A DNA stretch of 64,000 nt from Streptomyces sp. NBC_01260 (GTDB lineage: Bacteria > Actinomycetota > Actinomycetes > Streptomycetales > Streptomycetaceae): the NCBI RefSeq assembly GCF_036226405.1, contig NZ_CP108464.1, forward strand, positions 7,750,001-7,814,000, read 5' to 3'. This document shows positions 45,619 to 48,663 of this stretch, piece after piece. Under the pieces are notes generated by a model. It saw only the letters and a program-made list of their open reading frames with translations, was not told the origin of the DNA and ran no database searches. Position numbers and translations under genes: made by a program. The stretch's first letter is position 1; every line of letters begins with the position of its first letter.

Positions 45619-46104
45619 TCACTCCGGGCCACCCGCCGCCGCCCGGCCCACCGATTCGACCAGGGGCAGCAGCCGGTGCGGCACCCGCTCGCGCAGGGCC
45701 ACCTCGGTCCGGGTCCTGACCACGCCCGGCAGCTGGATCAGCTGCTGGATCACGTCTTCCAGATGGCCGTTGTCCCGGGCCACCACCCGGGTCAGCAGGT
45801 CGCCGCCACCCGTGGTCGAGAAGGCTTCGACGATCTCCGGCACGGCGGCGAGCGCCTCGCCCACATCGTCGAGATGCCCCTGCGTGACCTCCAGGTGCAC
45901 AAAGGCGAGCACCGGGTGGCCGAGCGCGGCGGGCGAGAGGGACGGTCCGCTGCCGGTGATCACACCGTCCCGTTCCAGCCGGTCGATGCGGGCCTGGAGG
46001 GTGCCCCGGGCGATGGAGAGGATCCGTGCGTACTCGCGCACGGAGGTGTGCGGCTGTTCGATCAGCAGCCGCAGAATCCGGGTGTCGAGCGCGTCCACCG
46101 CCAT
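45619..46104 (-). CDS. Lrp/AsnC-family transcriptional regulator
   Basis: The 161-residue protein has an N-terminal HTH (ILRLLIEQPHTSVREYARILSIARGTLQARIDRLERDGVI) and a C-terminal RAM domain (VLAFVHLEVTQGHLDDVGEAL, STTGGGDLLTRVVARDNGHLEDVIQQL). These regulators sense amino acids or related small molecules and usually control a neighbouring gene; here the HAD gene follows in the same operon. The LPMO gene lies upstream on the same strand. Confidence 0.92.
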   Translation of the reverse strand: MAVDALDTRILRLLIEQPHTSVREYARILSIARGTLQARIDRLERDGVITGSGPSLSPAALGHPVLAFVHLEVTQGHLDDVGEALAAVPEIVEAFSTTGGGDLLTRVVARDNGHLEDVIQQLIQLPGVVRTRTEVALRERVPHRLLPLVESVGRAAAGGPE

Positions 46105-46206
46105 GGTCCGCCGGCCTCCTCCTGGTACGTCGGTCGGGGCAGCGACTGTACCAATGGCGCACCGGCGGGCCGCCGTCCCGTACTGGCCCGGGGCGGCGGC
46201 GGGACG

Positions 46207-46797
46207 TCAGAACTGCACGTCGGAGCAGGCGTAGAAGGCGTTCCCGGTGTCGGAGATCGTCCAGACGCCGAGGATCAGGTGCTTGCCGGACTTCTGTGGC
46301 AGCACGCCCGAGTGGCTCACGGTCGAGCCGGGCAGCCGGCCGCCGAAGGGGACGGTGAGGAACGGCTGCGGGTCCAGGTCGGCCCGGGTGAGCGGCTTGG
46401 CCGGGTCGTAGCCGTCCTTGGTGATGTAGTAGCGGAAGTCGGTCGTGGCGTGCCGGGCCTCGATCCGCCAGTTGAACGTGTAGTTCTGACCGGCGGTGAC
46501 CTGGGTGGCGGGCCAGGCGCCGCCCCGCGGGTCGTCGAGTTCGGAGAACCGGCCGATGCCGCCCGAGCAGATGTGGCCGTCGGCCGGTCCGCGGGTGGGG
46601 AAGCCCTTGGGGCCCTCGACGCTCGGGGGCTCCCACTGGATCTGCCCGCAGTGCTTGACGGTGCCGATCCCGCAGAGCTGCTGGCGGCTGATGGGGGAGT
46701 CGGTGTAGCCGTGGCTCTGGGCGCTGCCGGAGGTGGCGAACAGTGCCGCACCGGCCAGGCCGAGCCCGGCCAGTAAGGAGGTGATCCTTCTGCGCAT
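46207..46797 (-). CDS. secreted AA10 lytic polysaccharide monooxygenase (chitin-active type)
   Basis: The 196-residue protein has a signal peptide that ends ...GSAQS so that the mature chain starts with H29 (HGYTDSPISRQQLCG), the first copper ligand of the histidine brace. The second His lies in RIEARHATTDFRYYITK, and the axial Phe in DTGNAFYACSDVQF. It is a single-domain AA10, like Streptomyces CHB1-type proteins, cleaving crystalline chitin oxidatively outside the cell. A perfect GGTCTAGACC (DasR dre core) lies 44-53 bp upstream, matching control by GlcNAc-sensing DasR. Confidence 0.95.
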   Translation of the reverse strand: MRRRITSLLAGLGLAGAALFATSGSAQSHGYTDSPISRQQLCGIGTVKHCGQIQWEPPSVEGPKGFPTRGPADGHICSGGIGRFSELDDPRGGAWPATQVTAGQNYTFNWRIEARHATTDFRYYITKDGYDPAKPLTRADLDPQPFLTVPFGGRLPGSTVSHSGVLPQKSGKHLILGVWTISDTGNAFYACSDVQF

Positions 46798-46853: not shown

Positions 46854-47006
46854 GGTGAGCGTAGTCATGTCAACCAGGCGTGTCCATACCGTCCTGAGCG
46901 GGCTGCTGCGGGGTCCCGCCGAGGGGTGGTCCGTGGAGGCCCCATGTGCGGTGGGCGCGACATCGGGTGGTCCGTTGGTCGGCTAGTGGTGTCTCGAAGG
47001 AGCGAT

Positions 47007-47045
47007 ATGGCGAGCCAATGGCTCAGCGTCTGGAGCTCAATTTGA
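47007..47045 (+). CDS. 12-residue Trp/Ser-rich leader peptide upstream of the FUSC gene
   Basis: AAGGAG (46997-47002) precedes ATG 47007 by 4 nt. The peptide is MASQWLSVWSSI. It lies 39 nt before an intrinsic terminator that itself lies just upstream of the transporter start, the layout of ribosome-mediated attenuation. The base sequence around it also forms alternative stems: TGGCTCA (47019-47025) with TGAGCCA (47043-47049), versus CAGCGTC (47024-47030) with GGCGCTG (47084-47090). Confidence 0.45.
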   Translation: MASQWLSVWSSI

Positions 47046-47083
47046 GCCAACAGGCCGATGGATGCTCTGATGTACCTGTCGAT

Positions 47084-47112
47084 GGCGCTGCGGACCTCCG
47101 CGGCGCCTTTTT
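47084..47112 (+). terminator. intrinsic terminator in the FUSC leader (attenuator candidate)
   Basis: GGCGCTGCGGA (47084-47094) pairs with TCCGCGGCGCC (47097-47107) with one G-U, followed by TTTTT. It ends 42 nt before the GTG start of the FUSC gene. No gene upstream needs termination in this direction, so it most likely acts on the FUSC transcript itself. Confidence 0.75.
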
Positions 47113-47154
47113 CATGCCGGAACACCGAGCCGGCGGCAGAGGCGGGGAGCATTC

Positions 47155-48663
47155 GTGCTGAAGAGAGCGTTCGTGGCCCGGGACCCGGGGCGGCTGCGGC
47201 TGCGCAGCGCCGTCCGGGCCGTCCTCGGCATCGGCCTCGCGGTGGCCGTGTGCGGACTCGCCGGCCACTCGCTCGTCGCCGCCGTCACCGGTGGCCTGGC
47301 CGCGCTGCTCGCCCTGTTCACGGTCACCGACACCACGGTCCGCGGCCAGGCCGTCACCACCGCACTGCTGCCCGCCGTCGGCTTTCCGGTGCTCGCGCTC
47401 GCCGCCGTGCTGCACGGCCAACCGGTGGCGCGCGGCGCGGCCTTCCTCGCCGTCATGGGGGCGGGCGTGTACGCCCGGCGGTGGGGGCCGCGCGGACACG
47501 CACTCGGTGTGTTCGCGTTCATGGCCTTCTTCACCTCGCAGTTCCTCCACACGTTGCCCGGACAACTGCCCGAGCTGTACTCGGCGGTCGCCCTCTCGCT
47601 GCTCGCCTCCTCGGCCGTCCGCTTCGGGCTCTGGTGCTACGAACGCCGGCTGACCCCGGCCGCCGTGCCCGCGCCGGTCAGCGGCACCGGTCTGGCGAGG
47701 ATCACCACCCGCCAGGCGATCCAGGCGGCCGCCGGCGGAACCGTCGCGCTCATGGCGGGGCAGCTCCTCTCCGACCAGCGCTGGTACTGGGCCGTGGGGG
47801 CGACCTGGTGGGTCTTCGTGAACACCGCCTCGCGCGGCGAAACCCTGGTACGCGGCTTCCGCCGGGTCCTGGGGACGCTGATCGGCATCCCCGTCGGCCT
47901 GTGCGTCGTCGTGCCGCTGCACGGGGCTCCGGTGCCCACCGCCCTCCTGGTGGCGGTCGGGGTGTTCGGGATCTTCTACACCGCCGCGGTCTCGTACACC
48001 TGGATGATGTTCTCCGTGACGGTGATGGCCGGGGCGCTCTACGGGGCGCTCGGAGTGCTCGACCCGGCCCTGCTGGCCCTGCGGCTCGGTGAGACGGCCG
48101 TCGGTGCGCTCGGCGCGGTGCTCGCGGTGCTGCTCGTGCTGCCGGTCACCACGCATGCCACCACCGACGCCTGGATCCAGCGGGCCCTGCGCTGCGTGCA
48201 CGCCTGCACCGAGGAGGCCGCCGCCCGGCTCTCCGGTTCGGCGACGGCCGACCCGGCGCCGCGGGTCGCCGAGCTGGAGGCGCTCCTGGGGCGCGTCCGG
48301 CTGTCGCTCGCCCCGCTGGTGCACCCGCTGAGTCCGTTGCGCGCCCGCAGGGCGAGGGCCGCACACGTGCTCGCCCTGCTGGACGAGTGCGCCCGGGAAG
48401 TACGTGGACTGGCCTCCGTGGCGGCCGACCCGGAAGCCTCTCACGACGCCCGGCTCGCCGCTGCCTGCTGGCGCGTCGAGAGCGCGGTGGAAGCGCTGAC
48501 CGCCCCCGAGCGGCCGGCCCGCACCCCGATCGCCGTCGGTCTTCCGGCGCACGCCGCCCCGGCGGAACCCGCCCTCGCCCACCTGCACGGCCTGGAACGC
48601 GCGCTCGCCGAACTGGCCACGCCCCTGCACAGCCCGCCACGGTCGCCGCTCGTCGCAGCCTGA
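47155..48663 (+). CDS. FUSC-family (aromatic-acid-exporter-like) inner-membrane transporter
   Basis: The 502-residue protein has two blocks of hydrophobic helices, at about residues 18-160 and 180-340, with the FUSC-like motif WYWAVGATWWVFVNTASRGETLVRGFRRVLGTLIGIPVG in the second block. The last ~160 residues are soluble and helical. FUSC proteins export aromatic acids or related toxic compounds. GTG 47155 has GGGGAG 5 nt upstream. The leader carries a short ORF and an intrinsic terminator, so expression is probably decided by transcript read-through. Confidence 0.85.
   Translation: MLKRAFVARDPGRLRLRSAVRAVLGIGLAVAVCGLAGHSLVAAVTGGLAALLALFTVTDTTVRGQAVTTALLPAVGFPVLALAAVLHGQPVARGAAFLAVMGAGVYARRWGPRGHALGVFAFMAFFTSQFLHTLPGQLPELYSAVALSLLASSAVRFGLWCYERRLTPAAVPAPVSGTGLARITTRQAIQAAAGGTVALMAGQLLSDQRWYWAVGATWWVFVNTASRGETLVRGFRRVLGTLIGIPVGLCVVVPLHGAPVPTALLVAVGVFGIFYTAAVSYTWMMFSVTVMAGALYGALGVLDPALLALRLGETAVGALGAVLAVLLVLPVTTHATTDAWIQRALRCVHACTEEAAARLSGSATADPAPRVAELEALLGRVRLSLAPLVHPLSPLRARRARAAHVLALLDECAREVRGLASVAADPEASHDARLAAACWRVESAVEALTAPERPARTPIAVGLPAHAAPAEPALAHLHGLERALAELATPLHSPPRSPLVAA

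Follow-up and report, generated by a model that had tools for sequence, protein, structure and literature searches.

The stretch of DNA analyzed here (the window) comprises 64,000 nucleotides of Streptomyces sp. NBC_01260 and encodes on its + strand a FUSC-family membrane protein of 502 amino acids (47155-48663; PF13515, E = 1.5e-18), whose ribosome-binding site, GGGGAG, lies at 47144-47149. The leader of this gene contains on the same strand a terminator-type hairpin with a 10-bp stem, GGCGCUGCGG-ACCU-CCGCGGCGCC (47084-47107), a U tract (TTTTT in the DNA, 47108-47112) and the tetranucleotide CATG (47113-47116). Farther upstream, AAGGAG (46997-47002, + strand) precedes a + strand 12-codon ORF encoding the peptide MASQWLSVWSSI (47007-47045, with ATG at 47007 and the stop codon TGA at 47043-47045). 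Both are in the sequence as originally predicted, the idea being that a ribosome on this upstream ORF (uORF) steers the terminator in front of FUSC. The next upstream genes with Pfam matches, LPMO_10 (46207-46797) and an Lrp/AsnC-family regulator of 161 amino acids (asnC, 45619-46104; PF01037, E = 6.5e-20), are both on the - strand, so that neither of them needs this terminator. LPMO_10 lies between asnC and FUSC, a position that looks like a local change; a - strand LPMO gene is upstream in only 2 of 73 named loci. Downstream of FUSC and on the same strand, the window has a seven-bladed beta-propeller lactonase gene (PF10282, 48769-49839), as do 66 of the 73 named loci, and a functional tie between both proteins is possible.

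The comparison of leaders set out from 264 loci with a FUSC match, from which L001-L003 and L165 were excluded as own-genome copies or stretches without a leader. This set retained 223 unique promoter-anchored leaders and 13 without a promoter anchor, and the other 28 loci were removed because their leaders were identical or their FUSC match started after residue 5. The anchored leaders fall into 157 with a terminator-type hairpin (type 1, the window's included), 65 with an expanded form containing an inner domain (type 2/3) and a single odd one. Closer inspection assigns L260, counted among the 65, to type 1 as an extended member, which leaves 64 unique expanded leaders; the classification rules for the anchored and protein-found sets disagree on this locus and on L219. 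Since the type 1 set was defined by motif similarity (at most 2 substitutions), its apparent conservation is raised, yet only 1 of the 223 anchored leaders falls outside the types.

The element is widespread in Streptomyces and closely linked to FUSC. A DNA query covering 46960-47170 has matches in 87 of 150 Streptomyces genomes, and the part common to most matches is about 47078-47120, not the uORF. Each of the 29 loci retrieved from other genomes has a FUSC orthologue downstream, whose best segment is 68.9-88.8% identical. The FUSC protein was searched in 65 genomes, 63 lacking a DNA match and 2 having a weak one, and 46 of them have an orthologue at E = 1e-60. Of 139 loci found through the FUSC protein alone, 133 carry the element (79 + 2 + 9 of type 1, 1 + 39 + 3 of type 2/3 and 6 with neither). 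Once the identical pairs L089/L201, L090/L238 and L125/L177 and the double sampling of genome G088 (L132, L178) are collapsed, 135 distinct loci are left, and in 130 of them the element stands before FUSC (88 terminator-type and 42 expanded; the other 5 have neither). Of 245 genomes sampled at order level, at least 153 match the type 1 model at E = 0.01, and 58 match that of type 2/3 at E = 0.001; the matches listed include some genomes with both types and all belong to one genus of eight. When 197 genomes sampled at class level were searched with FUSC at E = 1e-50, the matches were likewise confined to this genus (16 genomes, one with a distant paralogue only). FUSC is present in 30 of 30 fetched loci for each of the two models. 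This comparison shows that element and gene are linked.

Some matches and loci depart from this pattern. The type 2/3 model has a second match in genome G265 (E = 8.6e-4) and 7 matches outside the genus among 296 genomes (E = 6.8e-5 to 0.0096); no FUSC was found in the out-of-genus loci L303, L304 and L306-L310, nor in the weak in-genus L305. Eight type 1 model matches, L316-L323, lack FUSC; all but one of them are at E = 6.9e-4 or weaker, and L317, L318 and L321 read like terminators at gene ends. The match in L316 (1501-1552, a second place in genome G300) reaches E = 8.1e-7 and lies 48 nt before the GTG of another reading frame, with no FUSC. Conversely, L126, L130, L132, L133 and L134 hold FUSC relatives without the hairpin or the operators described below, and most of them share the upstream motif GATTTGG...TGCTTTCCTC...CATG.GGAC. 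An apparent extra leader stretch in L124 (345-439) repeats the start of the element, CATGGCGC, and near the FUSC locus of L044 there is a match to the cobalamin riboswitch (632-751; RF00174, E = 7e-9) cut by the end of the stretch.

The hairpin itself agrees with the terminator that was originally predicted, TTTTT included, except that the stem has 10 bp and not 11, closed by the loop ACCT. The 40-nt RNA that begins at 47078 has a predicted folding energy of -22.2 kcal/mol (z = -3.99), with none of 200 shuffles as stable, compared to z = -2.29 and 2 of 200 shuffles for the 171-nt leader 46990-47160. The stem is kept in the 157 type 1 leaders while its loop ranges from 2 to 15 nt in 49 different sequences, and the predicted fold of the whole leader retains the hairpin in 138 of them. 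Their 1570 pair cells comprise 1392 Watson-Crick pairs, 174 G.U, no C.A and 4 others; 151 of the G.U cells correspond to one fixed U.G pair. The presence of G.U and the lack of C.A mismatches indicate that the hairpin acts as a + strand RNA. In an alignment of 51 of the 104 distinct type 1 hairpins (A3), two-sided changes affect 4 pairs and 7 cells, upper-stem pairs of the long-loop members included, compared to 1.5 and 1.9 in shuffles; the covariation score is nevertheless higher for a structure slid by -2 or +2 columns (0.061 and 0.059) than for the true one (0.052). The covariation of this hairpin thus appears modest, and the G.U bias and the loop lengths weigh more in favor of its RNA nature. 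At least 4 of the first 5 nucleotides after the stem are U in 155 of the 157 leaders, and TG follows 8-9 nt past the stem in 145. Sited between promoter and gene, this GC-rich conserved hairpin with its U tract has the composition of an intrinsic terminator, and the conserved TG would fit a pause or termination point at about 47115. The stem sequence, the U.G pair included, is kept well beyond what a terminator needs, which hints at an additional role. The best Rfam match in the window is ncS54 (22.7 bits for a cut-off of 43), the element in 10 further loci has no match at E up to 1, and no title on this leader was found within the open-access holdings searched.

Upstream of the hairpin, the conservation is that of a promoter. 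The window has a -35 element, TTGAGC (47042-47047), overlapped by the half-site TGAGCCA (47043-47049), and an extended -10 element, TG-N-TCTGAT (47063-47071, hexamer 47066-47071), both on the + strand. The profile was made from 153 type 1 leaders, the 4 of the 157 with another distance from -35 to +1 being excluded; it has TTGAGCC at -36 to -30, with TTGANCC nearly invariant, and TG-N-TNNNAT at -15 to -7, where T-15, G-14, T-12, A-8 and T-7 are each found in 150-151 leaders. The distance between -35 and +1, which was free to vary from 34 to 40, is 36 in 153 of the 157 leaders. The information content jumps from 0.25-0.46 bits at -4 to -1 to 1.68-2.0 bits at +1 to +16, and the +1 base is G in 144 and A in 9 of the 153 leaders, a purine being requested there by the set-defining pattern with 2 substitutions allowed. 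As DNA motifs with fixed spacing give way at the predicted +1 to an RNA hairpin with a variable loop, transcription likely starts at about 47078, the putative transcript beginning with this G and the sequence GUCGAU (47078-47083, + strand).

The promoter is also preceded by palindromes, centered near -103 and -60 in the 153 leaders, in addition to the half-site on the -35 box. The proximal one, op2 (CGAGCCAATGGCTCA, 47011-47025), lies within the proposed uORF, and its CC at -63,-62 and GG at -58,-57 are kept in 152-153 of the 153 leaders, the anchor pattern having contained the op2 motif with up to 6 substitutions. The spacing between op2 and the -35 element was fixed by the search pattern and is hence no evidence. 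The distal palindrome, op1 (TGGTCCGTTGGTCGG, 46968-46982), is conserved at -110 to -96 and starts 42-43 nt before op2 under either of two overlapping patterns. The motif TGNNCCAWTGGNNCA has a single exact match in the whole genome, TGTACCAATGGCGCA (46147-46161), located in front of asnC, and op2 differs from it by one mismatch; the regulator's own promoter region and FUSC, its candidate target, therefore share the palindrome. The number of exact matches is not above chance, since a reversed control pattern gives 3 genome matches, and the window has 9 matches with at most 2 mismatches for 8.9 expected. The argument for operators thus comes from the places and the conservation of the sites and not from their numbers. 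Among the 73 named loci that extend at least 3 kb beyond FUSC on its upstream side, 50 have a divergent asnC there, 36 of them within 400 nt, and the neighboring Lrp/AsnC regulator probably binds these palindromes.

The explanation that we favor, with a probability of about 0.6, is that FUSC is expressed from an Lrp/AsnC-type promoter and that its transcript meets an intrinsic terminator or pause site some 38 nt after initiation. FUSC would be transcribed from the TTGAGC and extended -10 promoter, overlapped and preceded by palindromes to which the product of asnC would probably bind. The RNA would begin at about 47078 and its first 30 nt would fold into the 10-bp hairpin, followed by five U. 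A GC-rich stem of 10 bp followed by U5 is a textbook intrinsic terminator, for which an RNA of about 38 nt is expected: a share of the RNA polymerases would stop or pause near 47115 and FUSC would be made only by those that read through, so that the element would be an intrinsic attenuator close to the promoter. A second group of Streptomyces shares the outer helix, which there encloses an inner hairpin domain and is followed by a shorter U tract; in this group, pausing or the binding of a factor may be more important. The uORF, located upstream of the start, would play no part. The element would then be a genus-wide cis-acting RNA in two related forms, a variant of the intrinsic attenuator that corresponds to no Rfam family at cut-off. 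The original prediction of an attenuation switch would accordingly hold for the conserved hairpin before FUSC, a probable attenuator, and not for the leader peptide.

It is possible, if unlikely, that the element works mainly as a structured 5' end recognized by a ligand, a protein or RNases (riboswitch-like or stabilizing), in which termination plays a minor part or none and the inner P2/P3 hairpin of types 2/3 acts as the sensor. The inner domain occurs in 64 unique leaders, in which the outer helix is kept and encloses a hairpin whose six-nt loop is mostly RA[CG]GAN. In an alignment of 36 of 39 type 2/3 leaders (A1, in which L120 and L127 are poorly placed), the outer helix has compensating changes from G-C to A-U in 5 rows at one pair and from C-G to U-A in 3 rows at another. 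These 8 cells changed on both sides, compared to 1.2 in shuffles, all belong to the outer helix, the inner helices having one-sided changes only; a count of 2 pairs so changed is reached in 121 of 500 shuffles. The U tract of these leaders is weak (2-3 nt, or starting with A in 8 of 65), which makes their termination doubtful, while T is kept at 8 nt after the stem in 64 and G at 9 nt in 62 of the 65 leaders so classed. Furthermore, L154 and L163 keep the RNA even though the usual promoter motif used as anchor was not found, and the stem conservation noted above exceeds the need for pairing. The 5' arm could instead pair with the GCGCC that follows (a:b), as 97.7% of 176 cells allow, but this pairing has no changes on both sides. 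Also against a sensor, 157 unique leaders, that of the window among them, lack the inner domain and carry the U tract, and the element matches no Rfam family at the cut-off. In a tree of 174 FUSC proteins, the types mostly track clades, with 10 Fitch changes over six labels (a count without a shuffled control).

Other explanations are far less probable. One is translational: the freed 3' arm and the U tract could mask the FUSC ribosome-binding site, as AAAGGGGCGG in some leaders could pair with CGCCUUUUU. Of the 79 leaders tested among the 157, 22 do pair more than 1 sd better than shuffles and 4 worse, but the mean z is only -0.44 and the window shows no effect at all (-13.0 vs -13.0), so that masking is not supported and seems very improbable. 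Reading frames within the transcript do not look coding either. A frame opened by the AUG at +5 runs into FUSC in 138 of the 157 leaders and stops inside the leader in 19, with frames relative to FUSC spread over 58, 57 and 42; ORFs starting from RTG after the stem are spread over 57, 48 and 40 and lacking in 12, and both candidates were rejected. Short ORFs preceded by a Shine-Dalgarno (SD) motif occur between the predicted +1 and FUSC in 5 of the 157 leaders.

The uORF was proposed to let a ribosome sense a drug or low charged Trp/Ser and to steer the terminator through mutually exclusive pairings, an explanation that now appears extremely improbable. The window does have the ORF and its SD motif, and at the same place a start codon of any kind is found in 21 and a complete open frame in 20 of the 157 unique type 1 leaders. 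ATG, however, is present in only 7, counting the window, and an SD-like motif upstream in 25. None of the 6 other ATG leaders has AAGGAG (L209 and L069 carry another SD-like motif, GGAGG or GAGG, and L209 has a stop inside the ORF), and their likeness to the window seems mostly due to the spelling of the palindrome and of TTGA. Across orthologous loci, where both parts were expected to be kept, the terminator is conserved and the uORF is not. The pairing of 47019-47025 with 47043-47049 is full in 30 of 157 leaders, compared to a mean of 24.7 and a maximum of 31 with shuffled partners; it exists as sequence, where it is a repeat of the operator half-sites, without covariation. That of 47024-47030 with 47084-47090 is complete in only 8 of 157, likewise without covariation. 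The uORF also overlaps the op2 palindrome, has its stop codon within the -35 box and lies upstream of the predicted start. The role proposed for its Trp/Ser codons finds no support, and the frame has probably arisen by chance where op2 and the -35 box lie. Finally, that the near-perfect inverted repeat beside the promoter is a DNA operator and not an RNA hairpin can practically be dismissed, as its arms are 2 to 15 nt apart, its + strand mismatches are G.U and never C.A, and the U tract is on one side only.

How early termination at the FUSC promoter would be relieved can be discussed within the attenuator hypothesis. A +1 at 47078 leaves no upstream RNA for an antiterminator, so that any switch would depend on a ribosome, a ligand or a protein; the candidates are AsnC acting at the promoter, the binding of a protein or ligand, and a ribosome positioned on the +5 AUG. 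A bolder and rather improbable proposal is that both forms make up one class of promoter-proximal RNA switches gating the FUSC exporter, in which the outer hairpin would stop or pause the polymerase about 8 nt past the stem, with an inner hairpin sensing a ligand or protein in one group and a reduction to a terminator in the other. In the stripped form, the signal could come from a ribosome retained on the invariant +5 AUG, where it would prevent the hairpin from forming.

The trp leaders and the uORF leader of WhiB7/WblC are leader-peptide attenuators, in which transcription is controlled by a ribosome. In them, as at this locus, the gene under control carries an intrinsic terminator in its leader; they differ in that here there is no conserved leader ORF and, if +1 is as predicted, no room for an antiterminator. 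Lrp/AsnC regulators act on neighboring transport genes; the regulator gene beside a probable target and the repeated palindromes are alike here, whereas the conserved RNA element that follows the operators sets this locus apart. The put RNA of phage HK022 makes the polymerase read through terminators and, like the element, is a conserved hairpin at the extreme 5' end of the transcript, but its effect is antitermination while the hairpin here itself looks like a terminator. Within Streptomyces, two studies describe premature transcription termination in 5' UTRs, by a cobalamin riboswitch in S. griseus (PMC8914203) and by a SAM-IV riboswitch in S. clavuligerus (PMC8269248). In S. clavuligerus, an end reportedly counted as premature only if it lay at least 70 bp past the start (PMC8269248). 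Such a minimum would leave out a stop as early as about 38 nt, and very early stops may more generally escape Term-seq rules that ignore ends near the start. The window's form shares with these riboswitches an early end in the 5' UTR, and differs from them in that this end would come about 38 nt from the start and without an aptamer. How so early a stop could be controlled, less than 40 nt from the start and with no space for an antiterminator, is a question that this leader raises.
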